Below, one piece after another: positions 320 to 21,616 of a stretch of 21,616 nucleotides of DNA. Within the stretch, counting starts at the first letter, position 1. The number at the start of each line of letters is the position of its first letter. The notes beneath the pieces are model-generated. The model saw only the letters and a program-made list of their open reading frames with translations. It did no database searches and was not told the origin of the DNA. A program made the position numbers and the translations under genes. The stretch is from a virus: positions 1 through 21,616 of the IMG/VR virus record IMGVR_UViG_3300033149_005412; one strand, 5' to 3'.

Positions 320-993
320 ATGAGAAAATTATTTTTTATATTAGTTTTTTGTTTGTTCAGCAATTCATTATTTGCTGCCACATTTGTTTGTTCAGCAATT
401 CATTATTTGCTGCCACATACAATTATTCAAAATCAGGTGTTAATCTAGATAGACTGAAATATGAAATTGAAAATAGTGATATAACAATAGCTATTGATAG
501 TTTGAATTATGTAGGAACAGATCTGACAATAAATATGAAATCCGAATTATCATCTGAAGAAGAAAATATATTGAATTCTATTGTTAGTTCTCATACAGGA
601 GAACCAATGCCAAATGAAAACAATATGGAAATATTGTTAGGCGAAGGAAAAAATAAAAGACTTAAATTTAAAGGGTATTCGTTTACTGCATATGCTAATT
701 CGGTATCAACATATAATTTTGCAATGCCTTTTGATGCTAATTTGCAAGGTGGAAAATTTTTAGGCACATCAGCAGAAGGAGATGAAGTCTCGTTTATCCT
801 GATGCCTGATACACCATACGAGTACTGGTATGTGGAAAAAGTTAGTTTTCCAGAAGGAACTTTTTTACTTGATTTAATGGAAGATTTTTCTATGAGTCAA
901 TTATTGCCCGAAGGAACACCATTAAGAGTAATATATAAAAACAACAGCGGAACAGATAAAAATATTCATTTTATTATGGTCTATAGATTATAG
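320..993 (+). CDS. Secreted fibre-associated phage protein, frameshifted by a 35-bp tandem duplication
   Basis: ATG at 320 follows a GGAGG at 309-313 and starts a classic signal peptide: MRK, a hydrophobic core (LFFILVFCLFSNSLF), then an AxA-type site at SLFA|AT. As written, this frame stops at TAG 446-448 after 42 residues because positions 348-382 are repeated exactly at 383-417. Deleting one copy joins the signal peptide to the frame ending at 993 and gives a 212-residue protein starting ATYNYSKSGVNLDRL. The mature part has 'LDRLKYEIENSDITIAIDSLNY', 'HTGEP', 'WYVEKVSFPEGT' and 'LPEGTPLRVIYKNNSGTD', which from memory recall a phage family encoded next to tail fibres. An alternative TTG start at 349 would give an odd N-terminus and is less convincing. 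A signal peptide on such a protein is unusual. The function is not known. Confidence 0.65.
348..417 (+). repeat. Perfect 35-bp tandem duplication inside a signal-peptide gene
   Basis: Positions 348-382 and 383-417 are identical over 35 bases. The flanks differ (T before copy 1, A before copy 2; TTT after copy 1, TAC after copy 2), so the unit is exactly 35 bp. Because 35 is not a multiple of three, the second copy shifts the frame and truncates the protein begun at 320. A second duplication of the same length lies at 21081-21150. Confidence 0.97.
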
Positions 994-3005: not shown

Positions 3006-4370
3006 ATGCCTACATTTTCAGTATCGTATATTGAACCAGGTACCTATGTAAATATTCGCACAATATCTATACCAGCAACAGCACCTGGCACAATAAATTT
3101 AGCTATTATAGGAAACGGTAAAAGGGAAAAAAATGTATTAAATGTTGAAATTGTTAGAGGTTCAGGTGACACAGATGAACTTCCATATGATGAAGAAAGA
3201 ATAATTTCTATTAGCCCTCAGATAACGGATGAATATGGTGATATATATAAATCCCCAGATGATTATGAAAAAACAGAATACGAAAATTCTATTACTTGGA
3301 AAGGTAATCAGCCATTAGAAGGAACAAAATATTATGTAAATATGGTTGTTACTAAAACAGAGGAAGAAAATGATTTTGATCCGCAATATATAGAATCAGA
3401 AGATATTGCTTATGATCTTTATGGTAATAGAATGGAAGTGAATTCTATGGATGAATATTGTACATTGCCAACAGCTATTTCACTTGCCATGAGGAATGGT
3501 TCTGGACCCGTAATTGGTGTTCAAGTAAATGAAGAAGATGCTGATCCATATGAAACAGCTCTCAATAAATTACAGTCAGAAGATGTTCAGTTAATAGTGA
3601 TAGCAAAAGATATAGATGCTTCTTTACTATCAGCTTTAAGCACTCATTTAACAAACATGAGTACTTTATTAGAGGGAAAATTTAGAAGAGGTTTAGTAGG
3701 CATACCGAAAGATACTGATAATCAGGAAAATTTTTCTGATATATTATCTTCATATTCTGATTTTGCTTCTGTGAACAATAAAAGACTTGGTTTGATAGGC
3801 GTATCAAATTGTGAAATAAGTACACCATCAGGTAATATGGAAATAGGAGCATGGGGATTAGCAGCAGCTATTGGAGGTATAGTATCTAACCCCAATAATG
3901 ATCCAGGTGAACCAATAACAGGAAAATTAGTTACAGGATTTGAATCTATTAAAGATAAATTTATTAGAAAACAGAAAAATAGAATCGCTGGCAATGGAGT
4001 AACTATTGTGGAAAAAGATGGAGCTGTGAATATTATAAGACATTTCTTGTCAACTGATATGTCAACTCCTGCCACACAAGAACTGAAAATCACAGGAATA
4101 GCAGATTATTTTGCTATATTGCTTATTAAGACACTTAATGCAGTGGTTGTTAACACAAGAAATTTAGGAACAGAAACAATTAATAATATAAAAGCGATTA
4201 TTAATTTATTATCAAGTGCCCAAGTTGATAATAGAATATTAGAAGAGCCAGCAAGAAATGTTTCTGTTGTGAGAAGTGAAATAGATCCAAGACAAATGAA
4301 TGTTGGATTAGAAATATTACCAGTCGGTGATGTCAATTGGATATACATCGATATGGGAGTTGTATTTTAA
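3006..4370 (+). CDS. Contractile tail sheath protein
   Basis: The 454-residue product forms the contractile outer sheath around the tail tube. It opens like sheath proteins, MPTFSVSYIEPGTYVNIRTI followed by an alanine/proline stretch and 'NLAIIGNG'. The middle contains 'YETALNKLQSEDVQLIVIA', a count of helix-strand typical of the sheath core, then 'FRRGLVGIPKDTD' and 'GLIGVSNCEIS'. The C-terminal part has 'RIAGNGVTIVEKDGAVNIIRHFLSTD' and closes with 'VGLEILPVGDVNWIYIDMGVVF', the usual C-terminal strand used to interlock neighbouring subunits. The length is at the compact end of the family. It has a strong AGGAGG at 2993-2998 and is followed 18 bases later by the tube gene, the conserved sheath-tube order. 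This call establishes the contractile tail type. Confidence 0.92.
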   Translation: MPTFSVSYIEPGTYVNIRTISIPATAPGTINLAIIGNGKREKNVLNVEIVRGSGDTDELPYDEERIISISPQITDEYGDIYKSPDDYEKTEYENSITWKGNQPLEGTKYYVNMVVTKTEEENDFDPQYIESEDIAYDLYGNRMEVNSMDEYCTLPTAISLAMRNGSGPVIGVQVNEEDADPYETALNKLQSEDVQLIVIAKDIDASLLSALSTHLTNMSTLLEGKFRRGLVGIPKDTDNQENFSDILSSYSDFASVNNKRLGLIGVSNCEISTPSGNMEIGAWGLAAAIGGIVSNPNNDPGEPITGKLVTGFESIKDKFIRKQKNRIAGNGVTIVEKDGAVNIIRHFLSTDMSTPATQELKITGIADYFAILLIKTLNAVVVNTRNLGTETINNIKAIINLLSSAQVDNRILEEPARNVSVVRSEIDPRQMNVGLEILPVGDVNWIYIDMGVVF

Positions 4371-4388: not shown

Positions 4389-4952
4389 ATGCCAAATATT
4401 CCACAAACCAAATTAAGGTTACAGCCATATATAACTATTAGCACAATAAAATCAGACGAAGAAGGCGGCGGCGGGGCACAATTGCAAACACCAGAAGATA
4501 TATTGTCGATAGTGGAAGGTGGGAAAAAATTAACTCAGTTAGGTGCTATACAGAAAGTTGATATAAAGCAAACAAGAACAATAAACCAATGGAGGAACTT
4601 GGATGCTTCAACATATGGTAAAATAGTTGAAACGTATCCTGGATTACCAAATTATTCATTGACACTTGATAGATTAGTTCTTTATGAAGAAAACGTATTA
4701 GAGGCTTTTGGGTTTGATGGTAGTGATTTAATTGAGCAATTTAAACCGTTTTTAATAATTATTTCTTTGTTTGGTCCCGAAACTGCAAAAACAGAAAAAT
4801 CTAATTACACATGGATTTATCATAATTGCTGGTTTGAAAATTTTGGATTGTCATTTGATATAGAAGCAGGTAATCTTAAAATGAATCAATCTACTAATGT
4901 GGCTACTGCAGGTGTTATACCATCAAAAAAAGTAATTACATACGAAGATTAA
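4389..4952 (+). CDS. Tail tube protein, copy A
   Basis: The 187-residue product directly follows the sheath gene, the normal place for the inner tube protein. It carries 'TRTINQWRNLDASTYGKIVETYPG' followed by 'YSLTLDRLVLYEENVLEAF', the pattern of T4 gp19-like tubes in which a strand reading x-L-x-x-x-R-x-x-L-Y precedes the outer helix. The C-terminal part has 'YHNCWFENFGLSFDIEAGNLKMNQSTNVATAG'. A glycine run (EEGGGGAQ, near residue 28) forms a GC-rich spot in an AT-rich gene and probably marks a flexible loop. It shares the late CWFE segment with the next gene, so the two are paralogues. Which one forms the bulk tube cannot be told from sequence. Confidence 0.75.
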   Translation: MPNIPQTKLRLQPYITISTIKSDEEGGGGAQLQTPEDILSIVEGGKKLTQLGAIQKVDIKQTRTINQWRNLDASTYGKIVETYPGLPNYSLTLDRLVLYEENVLEAFGFDGSDLIEQFKPFLIIISLFGPETAKTEKSNYTWIYHNCWFENFGLSFDIEAGNLKMNQSTNVATAGVIPSKKVITYED

Positions 4953-5005
4953 ACAATAATTAAAAATTAAAATCCCTTGCTCCATGAATCAACAGGAGAA
5001 ATATA

Positions 5006-13666: not shown

Positions 13667-14184
13667 TGTTTTTTGCACCACAAATAACACAAACAGTACA
13701 ATATCAAGAAGAAGAAAAAATAGAGCCTTCTGATAATCAAAAAAAATTATTGAGTTCGTTAGGGATAACAATTATGAAATCTCTTAGACCAATATTAGAA
13801 ATGTGGATATCCCAGTTAAGAGCTCAATTGATTATATATACAAATAAAAAACTTGAAAATATTTTAAGACAAAGACAGATAATAAATGATAAAGAAATAA
13901 TAGAAAGAGGGGTTCAGATTATAGAAAAAGGAGCATCATACGCCAATTCTTTACCGATAGAAGCATTGAAGGGAATACCGTTTTTATATGAATTAGCGAA
14001 TAAATCAAGAGATATTTTAGATCAATCATCAAGCAGAGCAAGAAATTGGGATTATACAATAAATATGATAAACGATAAAGAAATGGCTTATGATGTTATT
14101 ATTCAAAAACTTGATTCGCTCATAAGACAAGGGAAAGGCATTTTAGATCAGATAGAAATATATTTGGAAAGAGGAACAGTATAA
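13666..14184 (+). CDS. Hypothetical baseplate-region protein, helical
   Basis: The 172-residue product sits between the spike and the gp25-like wedge, with TAATG overlaps at both ends (13664-13668 and 14182-14186), so it is translated as part of the baseplate set. It is mostly helical, with a hydrophilic N-terminal tail (QEEEKIEPSDNQKK), then 'LRPILEMWISQLRAQLIIYTNKKLENILRQRQ' and two further charged amphipathic helices. There is no signal peptide or catalytic motif. It could be a wedge connector, a spike chaperone or a small structural adapter. No family was recognised; its operon position is the only guide to function. Confidence 0.6.
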   Translation: MFFAPQITQTVQYQEEEKIEPSDNQKKLLSSLGITIMKSLRPILEMWISQLRAQLIIYTNKKLENILRQRQIINDKEIIERGVQIIEKGASYANSLPIEALKGIPFLYELANKSRDILDQSSSRARNWDYTINMINDKEMAYDVIIQKLDSLIRQGKGILDQIEIYLERGTV

Positions 14185-14621
14185 TGGAAGATTTGAAACT
14201 TTTAAGAACAAGAACAGGTCAATATTATGGCGATTTTAATGATATACAGTTTGATGAAAAAAATGATCTTGATTTAATATCAGGATCGGCAAGAACAAGA
14301 CAAAATATAGTAAAAATATTATTGACTATTCGGGGAACAAATAAAAAATATCCTCATTATGGAACTTATATGCAGAAAATAGGGAATATCAGTAATGATT
14401 ATTCTCAAAAACAATTGCTTATAAGAGAATCAATTATTCAAGCATTAAAATATCTTCAGATAGTGGAAGAATCAGAAGAAGAAAATGAATTACTTGAAAG
14501 TATTCAATCAATAGATTTTTGTCCTTCTGAAGATTCAAGAGAATATAGAATTAATATAAATATTGTTTTAGAATCGGGTGATTTAATAAAAATAGAATTA
14601 GAGGAAAATGAAAATGCTTAA
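14184..14621 (+). CDS. Baseplate wedge protein, gp25-like
   Basis: The 145-residue product matches the GPW/gp25 wedge family, which links the sheath to the baseplate and has a lysozyme-like fold without activity. The family signs are 'DLDLISGSARTRQNIVKILLTIRGTNKKYPHYGTYM': a short acidic lead, an R-Q-x-I helix, the strand/turn that carries a G-[ST]-x-x-x-x-P-x-x-G-type stretch, and the later 'RESIIQALKYLQ' helix. The C-terminal strands ('YRININIVLESGDLIKIEL') close the domain. TAATG overlap on the left and an 8-base overlap with the next gene keep it coupled to the wedge gene, which is the usual gp25-gpJ order. Confidence 0.8.
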   Translation: MEDLKLLRTRTGQYYGDFNDIQFDEKNDLDLISGSARTRQNIVKILLTIRGTNKKYPHYGTYMQKIGNISNDYSQKQLLIRESIIQALKYLQIVEESEEENELLESIQSIDFCPSEDSREYRININIVLESGDLIKIELEENENA

Positions 14622-16047
14622 TAAAAGTGATATAGCAAATGAATTAAGACAATCAATTAAAACTATTAGAGAAAGAATAAATACTCAGCCAGGATCAGCA
14701 GTTAATGACATTATATTAACGCCATTAACGGATATGGTTTTCAAACAAAGAGTTCGGTCTCAATTGATATCAATTTTTCAATCACTTGATCTGGTATTAG
14801 ATTTGCTGAATGATGAAACTTTAAAAACTCAAACTGCGAATGATCTAGATATATCAGTGCAGGAATTAGAAGAAACATTGACTGAAATAGTGGAAAAAAC
14901 TGCATCAAATTGGGGAATCACTAGAAGGTCAGCAACAAAAGCAACGGGGTTTGTATATTTTTATATATCAGAAGATGATTATGTATCTCCAATAACAATA
15001 CCAGCAAACACTGTTGTTAATAGGGTGGATGGAATAGAATATGAAACTCCTGATCAAGAATATAAAATAACAGATAAAAATTTTTCAAGTATTTTAAATG
15101 CTTATTATGTAAAAGTCCCTATAACGGCAATTGAGTCTGGCACACAATCAAATGCTCTTGCAAGCAGCATTGTTGAATATCCCGAAGGGCTTCAAATAAC
15201 AGGAGTGATAAATTTAGAAGCTTTATCAAATGGGTTAAATGAACAAACTAATGAAGAATTGGTAGAAGCAGTAAGGCTTAAGTTAACAGGAAATAATATA
15301 GGCATAGAAGATGGATATACGTCTTTAATACTTGATAATTTTAGTTATGTAGATGAATTATTGCTTGTTGGACCAAATGATCCTGAAATGCAGAGAAATG
15401 AATTTGGAGGATCAATAGATGTATATATTAAAGGAAGTTTACCGACACAAATAGAATATGTTATGATAGCCAGACCTGATCAGCAAGAATATATATTAAA
15501 TTATTTACCTGCAAGTGATATATCAATAGATGGTTATTCAAGTGGAATTGATTATGAATTTGTTAAAGATGAATTATTATTTAAAGATAGTGCAAGATCA
15601 AATGATAAGATTGTGTGGTTAATAGATCCTCCTGCTCAATGGGTTGTGAAACATACATATGATAAATTGTTGTTTGATATTCAATCATTTTTAGATGACA
15701 AAGATAATAAAATACTTGATTCTGATGTATTAGTCAGAAAAGCATATGAAATAATAGCGAATGTATCTTTGCAAGTATCACTTTTCAGCGGATATGTGTT
15801 TGACGATGTAGAAATTCAAATACAAAATATTGTTGCCCAACACATATTTGATTTAGCATTAAATGATTCATTGCTTATTGCTGACATAATTGATAAAGTT
15901 CAGTCTTTGGAAGCTGTTGAAAATACAAGAAATGTAGTTATAACAGTAGACCCAGAATATCAGGATTTATTAAATAGTGATGGTGATTTAATTATTAATA
16001 GAACACAATATATATCACCTGGAATTGTATCAGTTGCGAGAATATAA
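14614..16047 (+). CDS. Baseplate wedge protein, gpJ-like
   Basis: The product is a Baseplate_J-family wedge protein (gp6/gpJ-like) of about 477 residues. ATG 14614 is preferred over 14608 because GAGG at 14601-14604 is 9 bases from it but only 3 from the upstream ATG; both lie in one frame. Family signs are 'ATGFVYFYISEDDYVSPITIPANTVVN' (strand then G-x-x-[IV]-P-x-G/N-T turn), 'YETPDQEYKI', 'VPITAIESGTQSNALASSIVEY', and 'ALSNGLNEQTNEELVEAVRLKL' followed by 'GIEDGYTSLIL'. The C-terminal part ('DVLVRKAYEIIANVSLQVSLFSGYVFDDVEIQI') corresponds to the terminal domain that joins wedges in a ring. This is among the best-supported calls. Confidence 0.85.
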   Translation: MLNKSDIANELRQSIKTIRERINTQPGSAVNDIILTPLTDMVFKQRVRSQLISIFQSLDLVLDLLNDETLKTQTANDLDISVQELEETLTEIVEKTASNWGITRRSATKATGFVYFYISEDDYVSPITIPANTVVNRVDGIEYETPDQEYKITDKNFSSILNAYYVKVPITAIESGTQSNALASSIVEYPEGLQITGVINLEALSNGLNEQTNEELVEAVRLKLTGNNIGIEDGYTSLILDNFSYVDELLLVGPNDPEMQRNEFGGSIDVYIKGSLPTQIEYVMIARPDQQEYILNYLPASDISIDGYSSGIDYEFVKDELLFKDSARSNDKIVWLIDPPAQWVVKHTYDKLLFDIQSFLDDKDNKILDSDVLVRKAYEIIANVSLQVSLFSGYVFDDVEIQIQNIVAQHIFDLALNDSLLIADIIDKVQSLEAVENTRNVVITVDPEYQDLLNSDGDLIINRTQYISPGIVSVARI

Positions 16048-16532
16048 TGTTGAACATAGAAGAATTAAAAAATAATTTTTATGAACTTATATATGAAGAA
16101 TATATATATGACGTGGAAGAATTAGCAGATAATTGGCAAATAACTTATACTGATTATGCAGTTAATGGACAAACATTATTTGCATCTATATCGGAAATAA
16201 AAGAAGATGCAAAACAGTTATTGACAAATGGATTAAAAATTATTTTTGAAAAATTGTATGATGATCAAAATATAGCTATAGATAGTTTTCAATCAGATAT
16301 GAATTCTTTATTTGCTGCTTTTTGGTTAACTCCGTCAAATATTGTATTTGCTCCCAATCCGATAACAACAATAGTTGTTTCTGCTGGTTCATTTAATTTT
16401 CAATCATTAAAAAATAAATATATTGATTCAAAACAAGAAGGCATTAATTTATTATCACAAATATTTGATAGTTATACAAGAACAGTTCAAATATCAGATT
16501 CATCTATACCACAGACAGGATATTTAACATGA
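16047..16532 (+). CDS. Hypothetical baseplate protein between gpJ-like and gpI-like genes
   Basis: The 161-residue product begins with a TAATG overlap and ends ATGA-overlapped with the next gene, so it belongs to the baseplate operon. The N-terminus is acidic and helical (NIEELKNNFYELIYEEYIYDVEELADNW). The middle contains 'FAAFWLTPSNIVFAPNPITTIVVSAGSF', a hydrophobic strand-rich stretch. It ends in a flexible tail (SIPQTGYLT). No family was recognised. Proteins in this place are often wedge or adapter components needed to attach fibres, but no motif supports that here. Confidence 0.6.
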   Translation: MLNIEELKNNFYELIYEEYIYDVEELADNWQITYTDYAVNGQTLFASISEIKEDAKQLLTNGLKIIFEKLYDDQNIAIDSFQSDMNSLFAAFWLTPSNIVFAPNPITTIVVSAGSFNFQSLKNKYIDSKQEGINLLSQIFDSYTRTVQISDSSIPQTGYLT

Positions 16533-18130
16533 TAGATTATGAAATAATACAACATGATTTATATGTAGAAATTGATTTTTCTTATGATGATGAAATCATT
16601 AATAATATATCTGTATATAAAATCAGGTATGGGGAAACAGAAGAACAACAGGAATTTGAAATAATCGCTGACGAATCTGAAACTTATAATTTTAAAATAG
16701 CAAGTTCAAGACCTTTGACAATAGAAATAAAAGCTTTTGATAATGAAACAGAAATAGAATCAGTTTCTTTTGAAGCAAAAGCAAGATTAATATCACAAAC
16801 TTTTTCTGTTATAAGTTTTTCATATAACAAAGAAATAGAAAATAATATATGGTATTATAAAATTATTTATGATGGAACAGAAGAAAAACTAATTGCTAGC
16901 CAATCACCGATATATAATTTTATTATTGAATTAGAAGAAATAAATGAAGTGCAAGTAATTGCAGTAAATTTTGAAGATGATGAAGTGGAAGAAATAGAAT
17001 ATGAATTTGTTGATTATGTATCACCATTGACAATAAATGAATTATATGGATATTGGTCTGATCATTCAAAACAAAATCATAGGATAATGCATTGGAAACT
17101 TCCTATAATTATTTTTCAACAATCAGAATTTCTTAATTATGAGTTGGAGTTGAAAGAAGATGATGATGTTAAATATTATACAGAAACTAGTGAAGCAGAA
17201 GAGTTTGTTGAATTTCAAAACGGAAAATTTGTGAAAGCTTTTGCTATTGATGTCAAAAACAGAAAACAAAAAATTGATAGGAATTTTCAATGGAGAGTAA
17301 GAACATTTTTTCAACAAGAAGGAATTTATGGCATATGGAGATCTCCTTGGTCCGAATATAGGCATTTTGTTTTAAAAAAACAAAATGATTTGGAAGAAAC
17401 AGAAAACAGATTTTTTGATTTAGCAGACGACAATATATATAATAAAGATATTTTAAAATTGTCATTGGAAGAAAGGGAAAAATATAATGTATGGAAGGTA
17501 ATGAGATTTCTTTCAAAAACAATAGAAGAAGAGAATTGGGATTTAGAAAGAAAGGTAAGTGATTTAGATTTTGAAGAAATAAGAGATAATGCATTGCAAA
17601 ATTTTTCTAATTTTCATTTATCTATTAACAAAAAGGAATCTGAAACATGGTCAGAATATAGATATAAATTATTAAAAATAAAAAATGCTTTTGCAAGTTG
17701 GTCAGGGAGATATAGAGCAGTAGAAGAAGTTGTGGAAGCATTTACTGGCATAAAACCTATTATATCACCTTTTAAAATGTCTTATGGATGGGTATTGGGT
17801 GATTTTGGAGTTGAAAGCCATATATTAACAAAAACTTTTAATTATTTTATAAATGAAGAAGGTAATACATATAAAGAAGTTAATAAAGAATTACCAGGGA
17901 CATACAAGGATTCAACCTTATATCATAAAAACACATATGGTTATGGAATATTAATAAAAGTATACGATCCTTTTGAATTGTTAGATGATGAAGACAAACA
18001 ATTAATGGAGCATATAGTTAGAAAGATAATTCAAAAACATTATAAAGTATATTTTGAATATATTTTGGATTTTGCTCCTGAATTGCTTGTTTGGGATGTT
18101 GGCATGTGGGATGTTGGCATGTGGGATTAA
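16529..18130 (+). CDS. gpI-like tail protein with two N-terminal beta-sandwich-like repeats
   Basis: The 533-residue product appears to be a fibre-attaching tail protein I. Residues 1-165 form two similar strand-rich units (VEIDFSYDDEIINNISVYKIRYG and VISFSYNKEIENNIWYYKIIYDG), a possible FN3/Ig-like pair; a third beta domain follows with 'RNFQWRVRTFFQQEGIYGIWRSPWSEYRHF'. The C-terminal half has 'LNLEERxKYNVWK', 'IRDNALQNFSNF' and 'WSEYRYKLLKIKNAFASWSGRYRAVEEVVEAFTG', then 'GILIKVYDPFELLDDEDKQLMEHIVRKIIQKHYKVYFEY', the layout of gpI/DUF2313 proteins. It ends with a WDVGM repeat (18092-18127). The order gpJ, small gene, gpI, fibre is conserved. The extra N-terminal repeats are unusual for P2-type gpI. 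Confidence 0.65.
   Translation: MIDYEIIQHDLYVEIDFSYDDEIINNISVYKIRYGETEEQQEFEIIADESETYNFKIASSRPLTIEIKAFDNETEIESVSFEAKARLISQTFSVISFSYNKEIENNIWYYKIIYDGTEEKLIASQSPIYNFIIELEEINEVQVIAVNFEDDEVEEIEYEFVDYVSPLTINELYGYWSDHSKQNHRIMHWKLPIIIFQQSEFLNYELELKEDDDVKYYTETSEAEEFVEFQNGKFVKAFAIDVKNRKQKIDRNFQWRVRTFFQQEGIYGIWRSPWSEYRHFVLKKQNDLEETENRFFDLADDNIYNKDILKLSLEEREKYNVWKVMRFLSKTIEEENWDLERKVSDLDFEEIRDNALQNFSNFHLSINKKESETWSEYRYKLLKIKNAFASWSGRYRAVEEVVEAFTGIKPIISPFKMSYGWVLGDFGVESHILTKTFNYFINEEGNTYKEVNKELPGTYKDSTLYHKNTYGYGILIKVYDPFELLDDEDKQLMEHIVRKIIQKHYKVYFEYILDFAPELLVWDVGMWDVGMWD
18092..18127 (+). repeat. 15-bp in-frame tandem repeat, 2.4 copies, at the gpI-like C-terminus
   Basis: TGGGATGTTGGCATG occurs at 18092-18106 and 18107-18121 without mismatch, followed by TGGGAT before the stop TAA. 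It encodes WDVGM twice plus WD, the last residues of the protein. The unit is a multiple of three, so copy number can change without a frameshift. This repeat differs in length and frame effect from the two 35-bp duplications. Confidence 0.9.
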
Positions 18131-18555: not shown

Positions 18556-21162
18556 ATGAAAAAAATTATTTTATCAATAAGTTTATTTTTCTTGTCATCA
18601 ATAGCATTTGCAAGAAATTACGGAGTTTATCCTATCACTTCTCCTATTGCAGGTGTTAGATTAGCTGTTGTTGGAGAAATAGCCGTTAGTAGCTCACCAG
18701 CAAATATGCCTATTATATTGCTGGAGTCCGATGGAACAATTAATGGTATTGTAGGCAATTTTCAAGAAATTAATGTATCATCGGCTTCATCAGCAACTGG
18801 AGATTTTGATTTAATTTTAACTTCTTCTATTACAGGAAAAGGATATGGAGTAAATATTATTACTGATACTACAATAACAAAGGATTTATTTGTTGATGGT
18901 TTGCTTGGCATAGGAACTAATATTCCATCAGAAAAACTTCATGTAAATGGAAATATACTATCTGATTATGGGGTGATAGGTTCCACAGGAACTTTTAATC
19001 ATATATATGTTTCATCAATTACAGGAACTTCACCATTAAATATTATTGGAGGAGCAATTATAAAAAATGGAAATTTGGAATTGGGTGTAAATAATATAAT
19101 TATTGAAGGCCTTGTAGATGGTAGAGATATTTCGATTCTCGGAAGCACAGTAGATCAAATTCAGATAGACACTACAACTTTAAGAAATGATTTATCAACT
19201 GAAACTTTTGAAAGAATAGCAGCTGATAATCAGATAGCTATAGACACTACAACTTTAAGAAATGATTTAAATGATCATATAGCATATACAACTACAACTT
19301 TCAACGAGGTAGCTATAGACACTACAACTTTAAGAAATGATTTGGAAGGTTATTTGAGCTATACAACTACAACTTTTAATCAGATAGCTATAGACACTAC
19401 AACTTTAAGAAATGATTTATCAACTGAAACTTCTGAAAGAATAGCAGCTGATAATCAGATAGCTATAGATACTACAACTTTAAGAAATGATTTAAATGAT
19501 CATATAACATATACAACTACAACTTTTTATGATGTTGGTTTATCAACTACAAGTCTTTATGAAAGTAAAGTATCAACATCAGGTGATAATGTTAGTGGAG
19601 ATATAAATTTCAAAAATGCTGCCATACGATTATATGATGGATTTGCAAATCATAAAATAAATGAAGATGGTACTGCACTTAAAATTGAAGGCTCAGAACC
19701 AAATAGTTATGTACTCATGGATGGTCCATTATATATGATTGATGGGGGAATAAATCTTAATGGACAACCATTATATGATAATGTAAGTGAAGCAGTAAAC
19801 ATTACTACAAATGTAGTTATTTCGGGAAATTTGTCCGCAGATGAAGGAGATTTTAATCATATATATGTTTCTTCTATCACAGGAAAATCCCCAGTTAACG
19901 TATTATCAGACATAAATTTTAAAGAGGATATTAATCTTACACCTGGAAAATTATTCAGATTTAATGACAACTCATATTTTAATGCAAATGCAGGAACGGT
20001 TTATTTATCAGCAGGAACAGGAGACAAAATACAAATTAAAAGTAACAACGAAATAGCTTTAGAAACTACAGCAGATAATAGTGAAATAGATTTTAAAACC
20101 AATATAGATTTGGAAGATAATAATTTAAGGAATGTGTCAACAGGAACATTTAAAAATGTAAAAACTAACGTGATAGAAAATAACGAAAATTCTAATATTG
20201 TTTTTAAAGTCAATAATTCTACAACTCATATTGTAAGTGATACTGATTTTAAATTTTATAAAGACATAAATGCTTTGGATAATGATTATGTATCAACAGG
20301 AAAAATCACTGTTTCATCAGGTATTTTTAATTATATAAATGTTGATCGCATTTATGCTCTTGAATCGCATATTTCTAGTGAGACAGTAACTTTAACAACA
20401 GCAACATATTTGTCAGTTGATGAAATATTTGCAAATGACGGATTAATAATTATTAGAGATGATATTGATATGGATGCAAATAATATTTTGAATGTTTCTA
20501 CTATTACAGGAACTTCTCCTGTTAATATTAGTGGCGGAATTAAAGTGTTGAATGGGAATGTGGATTTAAACGGAAATAACTTATTCGATGGTACTGGAAA
20601 TGTATTTGTAAACGATTCCATTCAAACAGCAGGAAATGTAAGAATTGATGGAGGTTATTTATTAGATTCAGATGGCAACGCTGCAGCGAAGGTAGATAAT
20701 CAATCGATTTATCTCGGAGGTGGTGAACATACATATGTGAACAATAACGGCCAATTAACAATTGGAAATGGCCAAAAAGCAGCTATTACGGGTGTGACAG
20801 AAGCACAAGGAGGGATACAAACAAATGATATAGATCCCTATATTGGAACTGAAATAAATATCAGCAATAAGGTTAATATATCTACTTTGAATGTTGCAGG
20901 TGAGTCTGATTTTAATGGCAATTTAGATATGAATGATTTTGCAATTCAAAATATTGACTGGACAAACACAGATAAAGATTTAGAAAATCAATTAATAATT
21001 AATTCATCAACTTCTCCAATTAATGATTCTGATTTAACAGCTAAAAAATATGTTGATGATTTGGTAGCTAATTCAACTTCAACATTGTTGGACAATGAAA
21101 CAGATCCTATTTTTAAACATTGTTGGACAATGAAACAGATCCTATTTTTATTTCTTGGATAG
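18556..21162 (+). CDS. Large secreted-type tail-fibre protein, truncated by a 35-bp tandem duplication
   Basis: ATG 18556 is preferred because AAAGG (18543-18547) is 8 bases away; ATG 18550 is too close. The protein begins with a strong signal peptide (MKK, then IILSISLFFLSSIAFA, cleavage before RNYG). It then has 'IGTNIPSEKLHVNGNI' at about residues 118-135, 'LVDGRDISILGSTVDQ' at about 185-201, five 25-residue repeats at about 203-328, and 'FNHIYVSSITG' type repeats near 147 and 433. As assembled it stops at TAG 21160-21162 after 868 residues, with a junk end (KHCWTMKQILFLFLG), because 21081-21115 is repeated. Without one copy the frame runs on to the window end. Similar domains occur in trimeric phage fibres that end in an S74 chaperone, which may lie beyond the window. 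Confidence 0.75.
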   Translation: MKKIILSISLFFLSSIAFARNYGVYPITSPIAGVRLAVVGEIAVSSSPANMPIILLESDGTINGIVGNFQEINVSSASSATGDFDLILTSSITGKGYGVNIITDTTITKDLFVDGLLGIGTNIPSEKLHVNGNILSDYGVIGSTGTFNHIYVSSITGTSPLNIIGGAIIKNGNLELGVNNIIIEGLVDGRDISILGSTVDQIQIDTTTLRNDLSTETFERIAADNQIAIDTTTLRNDLNDHIAYTTTTFNEVAIDTTTLRNDLEGYLSYTTTTFNQIAIDTTTLRNDLSTETSERIAADNQIAIDTTTLRNDLNDHITYTTTTFYDVGLSTTSLYESKVSTSGDNVSGDINFKNAAIRLYDGFANHKINEDGTALKIEGSEPNSYVLMDGPLYMIDGGINLNGQPLYDNVSEAVNITTNVVISGNLSADEGDFNHIYVSSITGKSPVNVLSDINFKEDINLTPGKLFRFNDNSYFNANAGTVYLSAGTGDKIQIKSNNEIALETTADNSEIDFKTNIDLEDNNLRNVSTGTFKNVKTNVIENNENSNIVFKVNNSTTHIVSDTDFKFYKDINALDNDYVSTGKITVSSGIFNYINVDRIYALESHISSETVTLTTATYLSVDEIFANDGLIIIRDDIDMDANNILNVSTITGTSPVNISGGIKVLNGNVDLNGNNLFDGTGNVFVNDSIQTAGNVRIDGGYLLDSDGNAAAKVDNQSIYLGGGEHTYVNNNGQLTIGNGQKAAITGVTEAQGGIQTNDIDPYIGTEINISNKVNISTLNVAGESDFNGNLDMNDFAIQNIDWTNTDKDLENQLIINSSTSPINDSDLTAKKYVDDLVANSTSTLLDNETDPIFKHCWTMKQILFLFLG
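19165..19539 (+). repeat. 75-bp (25-residue) tandem repeat, five copies, in the fibre gene
   Basis: The motif IDTTTLRNDL recurs with its conserved G of the GAC/GAT codon at 19168, 19243, 19318, 19393 and 19468, an exact 75-base step. The 15 residues between alternate between STETxERIAADNQIA and a tyrosine/threonine-rich form. Copies 1-2 and 4-5 match best, a 225-base super-repeat. A decayed sixth copy (VGLSTTSLYESK) follows at 19540. All units are in frame. Confidence 0.92.
21081..21150 (+). repeat. Perfect 35-bp tandem duplication disrupting the fibre gene
   Basis: Positions 21081-21115 and 21116-21150 are identical over 35 bases. The copy moves the frame by one and brings in TAG at 21160-21162. 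It has the same length as the duplication at 348-417 but an unrelated sequence, apart from a weak shared TTGTTnnnCAAT near the 5' end of each unit. Confidence 0.97.
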
Positions 21163-21616
21163 AAACAGAAATTCAAGATATTCAATTGCCAGGAAATGTT
21201 ATTAATGATGCATCAGTTGGTGTTGTACCATGGACGAACACTGTTAATGCAAAGTTAGAAGATGGAAATTTTGCAGCAGCCGAACAAGCCGGTGCCTCAG
21301 CTTCAAATTATCTTTATTTTGATGATTTTGGATTTAATATACCGGAAAGTGCAACAATAATAGCAATAACTGTTAGGTTTAAAAGAAAATATGATGAATC
21401 AGGATTACCAGCGGAACCATCTGCTGTATATACTAATAATTTAAAGTTGATTAAACCAAATGGTAGTTTTACAAATAATAGTTATTATACTGCTTCGCCT
21501 ATAAGGAATCTAGGTTCTAATTTTGATCAATGGACACAATCAAATAGCATGAGTGTAGAACACACAAAAGATACAAATGAAGATGTTTTGTGGAGTGAAA
21601 CTTGGACACCAGCAGA
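21117..21616 (+). CDS. C-terminal continuation of the fibre gene in the displaced frame (3' partial)
   Basis: This frame is open from 21117, just after TAA 21114-21116, to the window end. It repeats TLLDNETDPIF from the second duplicate copy and continues ISWIETEIQDIQLPGNVIND. The following 'VGVVPWTNTVNAKLEDGNFAAAE' and 'SNYLYFDDFGFNIPESATIIAITVRFKRKYDESG' form a beta-sandwich-like domain of the 'W.N..NA...DG ... LYF.DFGF.IP..A.I..I.V...R' kind seen in phage fibres and some bacterial surface proteins. There is no start codon or ribosome binding site of its own, so it is best read as the rest of the preceding gene after removal of one repeat copy. Receptor or glycan binding is inference. Confidence 0.7.

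Follow-up and report, generated by a model that had tools for sequence, protein, structure and literature searches.

Probable duplicated overlaps in assembled phage records

Neighbouring pieces of a scaffold often share a perfect overlap whose length approximates that of the largest k-mer, and scaffolding may leave this overlap in the sequence twice, around a run of Ns, an error through which incorrect protein-coding sequences reportedly enter databases (Chen et al., 2020; PMC7111523). The locus described here lies in a window that comprises an entire virus record of 21,616 bases (IMGVR_UViG_3300033149_005412), and it resembles the published error in three respects: the duplicate is perfect and has the size of a short join overlap, genes are broken by it, and the record is public and metagenome-derived. 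Whereas the duplicates reported by these authors flank inserted Ns (PMC7111523), the copies in the window have no Ns between them, and the overlap would be 35 nt long.

A second comparable case is found in LR745208.1, the published record of a distantly related, uncultured 485-kb phage, in which a perfect 127-nt tandem duplication breaks an ORF on the minus strand (around position 276,000; 4738-4996 of our locus L003). In two IMG/VR records of this phage, the 127-nt unit is present once and the frame stays open for 729 codons. The open frame, together with the agreement of two records against one, favours the single copy, and the duplication in this huge-phage record is thus probably an assembly error, as judged from the compared sequences. 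Like the duplications in the window, it consists of two perfect copies of a unit whose length is not a multiple of three, it disrupts an ORF, and it occurs in a phage that encodes a related baseplate protein. Unlike them, it is contradicted by two other records with a single copy, whereas none was found for the virus of the window, and it is located far from the contig ends, whereas both duplications of the window lie close to them. A simple check for duplications also brought a likely error to light in this published record.

Such duplications were counted in a control set that comprises 199 phage loci with 1.97 Mb in total. Most of these loci are IMG/VR contigs, picked either by unrelated DNA patterns or for their relationship to the baseplate protein. 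In this set, 15 tandem duplications are perfect and have a unit of at least 21 nt; the unit is divisible by three in 13 of them, as would be anticipated of repeats residing in genes. The two remaining units measure 127 nt, which is the LR745208 case, and 38 nt, the latter located at a contig end; a unit of 35 nt does not occur among the 15 duplications of these 199 loci.

Two perfect 35-nt duplications near opposite ends of the record

The earlier note on this DNA had drawn attention to a perfect 35-bp duplication that truncates a large fibre gene. The duplication is indeed present: two head-to-tail copies of AACATTGTTGGACAATGAAACAGATCCTATTTTTA, without a single mismatch, occupy positions 21081-21115 and 21116-21150 of the plus strand, within a fibre-like gene. 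Shuffling never produced such a match, and tandem matches in 20 composition-matched Markov sequences reached 17 nt at most, indicating that the duplication is not given by chance. Its proposed effect on the reading frame was likewise borne out. Specifically, the fibre-like ORF (18556-21162, plus strand) runs for 868 codons from the ATG at 18556 and, as it stands in the record, ends in a short out-of-frame tail, since the duplication shifts the frame and a stop codon is reached at 21160-21162, a few codons later.

Coding potential also continues beyond the duplication, as the earlier note had suspected. The upstream frame has a positive codon score (trained on the remaining genes of the window) as far as about position 21119; from 21120 onwards, and until the window ends, the positive score belongs to a different frame. 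None of 20,000 random sequences kept a stretch of 155 codons open. Taken together, the switch in codon score and the rarity of such an open stretch indicate that coding truly changes frame at 21081-21150. The same gene probably continues in the frame that is open on the plus strand from 21120 to 21616 and runs off the contig end.

Tandem Repeats Finder revealed a second perfect 35-nt tandem duplication at 348-418 (plus strand), close to the left end of the record, which consists of two 35-nt copies plus one further matching base and whose sequence is unrelated to that of the 21081-21150 unit; this twin had been overlooked in the earlier note. It falls within a gene spanning 320-993 on the plus strand, which it breaks in the same manner: the break comes right after the signal peptide (MRKLFFILVFCLFSNSLFAAT), which is encoded in one frame, and the main body of the protein follows in another. 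The coding score of the signal-peptide frame is lost after the duplication, and strong coding continues to 993 in the other frame. A TTG start at 349, should the ORF at 349-993 be annotated with one, is probably wrong.

Thus, the coding frame switches at two perfect duplications of equal length, one near each end of the contig, with coding intact on either side of each as judged by codon score. Between the duplications and the respective ends of the 21,616-base contig lie 347 and 466 bases, and the two are the only tandem matches of at least 20 nt in the window besides a set of 75-nt repeats (~19165-19527) and a 15-nt repeat (18092-18127). By our own arithmetic, the chance that two randomly placed duplications would fall one in the first 418 and one in the last 536 bases is about 0.001, a figure that does not count their equal lengths.

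Origin of the duplications

The duplication at 21081-21150 is very probably an assembly artefact, the trace of one of two contig joins in which a 35-nt overlap was left untrimmed, and the twin at 348-418 most likely marks a join of the same type. According to this scenario, short end pieces of about 382 bases on the left (about 1-382) and about 501 bases on the right (about 21116-21616) would have been attached to the contig body, and the 35 nt common to neighbouring pieces would have been left in, so that the overlap came to be written twice at each join. Since a length of 35 nt is not divisible by three, each of the two genes spanning a putative join looks frameshifted. A process of this kind would account for all the features described. 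We infer both the joining step and a fibre gene that is intact in the virus; there the gene would most likely continue in the open frame that follows 21150, with its true end outside the 21,616-base fragment.

The twin itself speaks for an artefact, since it has an unrelated sequence and the same length and lies by the other end of the record, such that the same overlap length recurs at both putative joins. So do the change of coding frame at both sites, each inside a gene, the control set with 13 of its 15 units divisible by three and none of 35 nt, the LR745208 case, and the join error described by Chen et al. (PMC7111523). Counting against it, errors of this kind seem uncommon in IMG/VR at large, with no other case of period 35 in the control set. 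A search of viral contigs with the exact 35-mer and with the contig's final 24 bases, aimed at a second assembly or a neighbouring contig, returned none, and the two contig ends share no terminal repeat longer than 10 nt.

Among the alternatives, the one that survives best is a real duplication that arose through slippage during replication or through recombination and cuts the fibre short, either as a fixed loss-of-function mutation or as a minority variant. In its favour, tandem duplications do occur naturally, the copies at 21081-21150 are perfect, and the break leaves all but the far end of the gene untouched. Nevertheless, the equal-length twin in another gene at the other contig end would require a second independent event. 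Moreover, the frame past the duplication is free of stops and still constrained as coding sequence by codon score, and a real break could therefore only be of very recent date, and this at both sites. We consider this explanation improbable.

Still less credible is a phase-variable switch, in which gain or loss of the 35-nt unit would toggle production of the full-length fibre, as in contingency loci. Tandem units of non-triplet length can change the frame, and the signal-peptide-like starts on both genes mean that both products could be exposed; that two probably exported or exposed phage proteins are switched by gain and loss of unrelated 35-nt tandem units is, however, very unlikely. There are only two copies of a long unit at each site, the two units are unrelated in sequence, both sites lie beside contig ends, and the search for relatives brought up none with a different copy number; in addition, the switch would need the same coincidence of equal lengths at both contig ends. 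Finally, a programmed -1 frameshift that bridges both frames, so that the two-copy form still yields a long product, agrees with the -1 register of the downstream frame and with a TTTAAAC heptamer at the copy junction (21112), but it is highly improbable, given that this heptamer and another at 21043 are both out of phase with the upstream frame, that no in-phase X XXY YYZ heptamer exists between 20900 and 21160, and that the twin at 348-418 would be left unexplained.

An untrimmed overlap thus remains the preferred reading, and the duplication, although present in the record, is most likely absent from the virus; truncation of the fibre is therefore not to be claimed from the sequence of this record. 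Correspondingly, the suggestion that the virus might make a fibre without its far end found no support, the duplication bearing the marks of an assembly error, including an equal-length twin by the opposite contig end that also breaks a gene. The earlier note had itself allowed for an assembly error, with its proviso "if real" and its proposal of read mapping. If the duplication is such an error, it tells us nothing new about the virus, and its value lies in a caution: where perfect tandem duplications of non-triplet unit share one recurring length and lie near contig ends, joins should be suspected before a truncation is called.

The fibre-like protein and its far end

The fibre-like protein gave one weak family match, to the minor tail protein family PHROG 404 (E 2e-5), which falls near the repeat stretch at ~19165-19527. 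Here a 75-nt coding repeat (IAIDTTTLRNDL... / YTTTTF) occurs about four times; its copies are imperfect and in frame and probably represent a real coiled-coil or stalk repeat. No homologues of the protein were found in phage records, viral contigs, genome contigs or the fetched related loci.

For the part encoded after the duplication, neither a family nor a homologue was found, including by tblastn of that part, and the AlphaFold model of its 165 residues reached a mean pLDDT of 33.6 and is unusable. The beta-sandwich fold and the receptor role that had been proposed for the part after 21150 accordingly remain guesses. The sole PDB sequence match of this part, an immunoglobulin chain (E 0.02), was taken as a chance hit.

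The N-terminus of the fibre-like protein, MKKIILSISLFFLSSIAFA, is a classical signal-peptide-like start, and it is one of two such Sec-type starts on genes of the tail region (18556-18620, MKKIILSISLFFLSSIAFA; 320-382, MRKLFFILVFCLFSNSLFA). Starts of this kind are odd for virion parts that are put together in the cytoplasm. Judging from its sequence, the fibre-like protein may be exported and not mounted on the tail.

Genomic context and relatives

The window encodes a contractile-tail module, which includes a sheath (3006-4370) that matches PHROG tail-sheath families, baseplate proteins (14184-14621 and 14608-16047) and others. The tail sheath, when used as bait for relatives, recovered none. 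Of the named relatives found, Bacillus phage G is the nearest; its gp188 shares 27% identity over 57% of the length with the baseplate J-like protein of the window (14608-16047). In the related contigs fetched for this comparison, only two window proteins have matches, both of them baseplate proteins, and the fibre is without detectable relatives. The baseplate J-like protein is also related to proteins of uncultured huge phages, such as LR745208. Given this kinship with phage G gp188 and with huge phages, the contig probably represents part of a far larger genome. Elsewhere in the window, an in-frame 15-nt repeat of 2.4 copies (18092-18127) encodes the C-terminal WDVGMWDVGMWD of a 533-aa protein (16529-18130).
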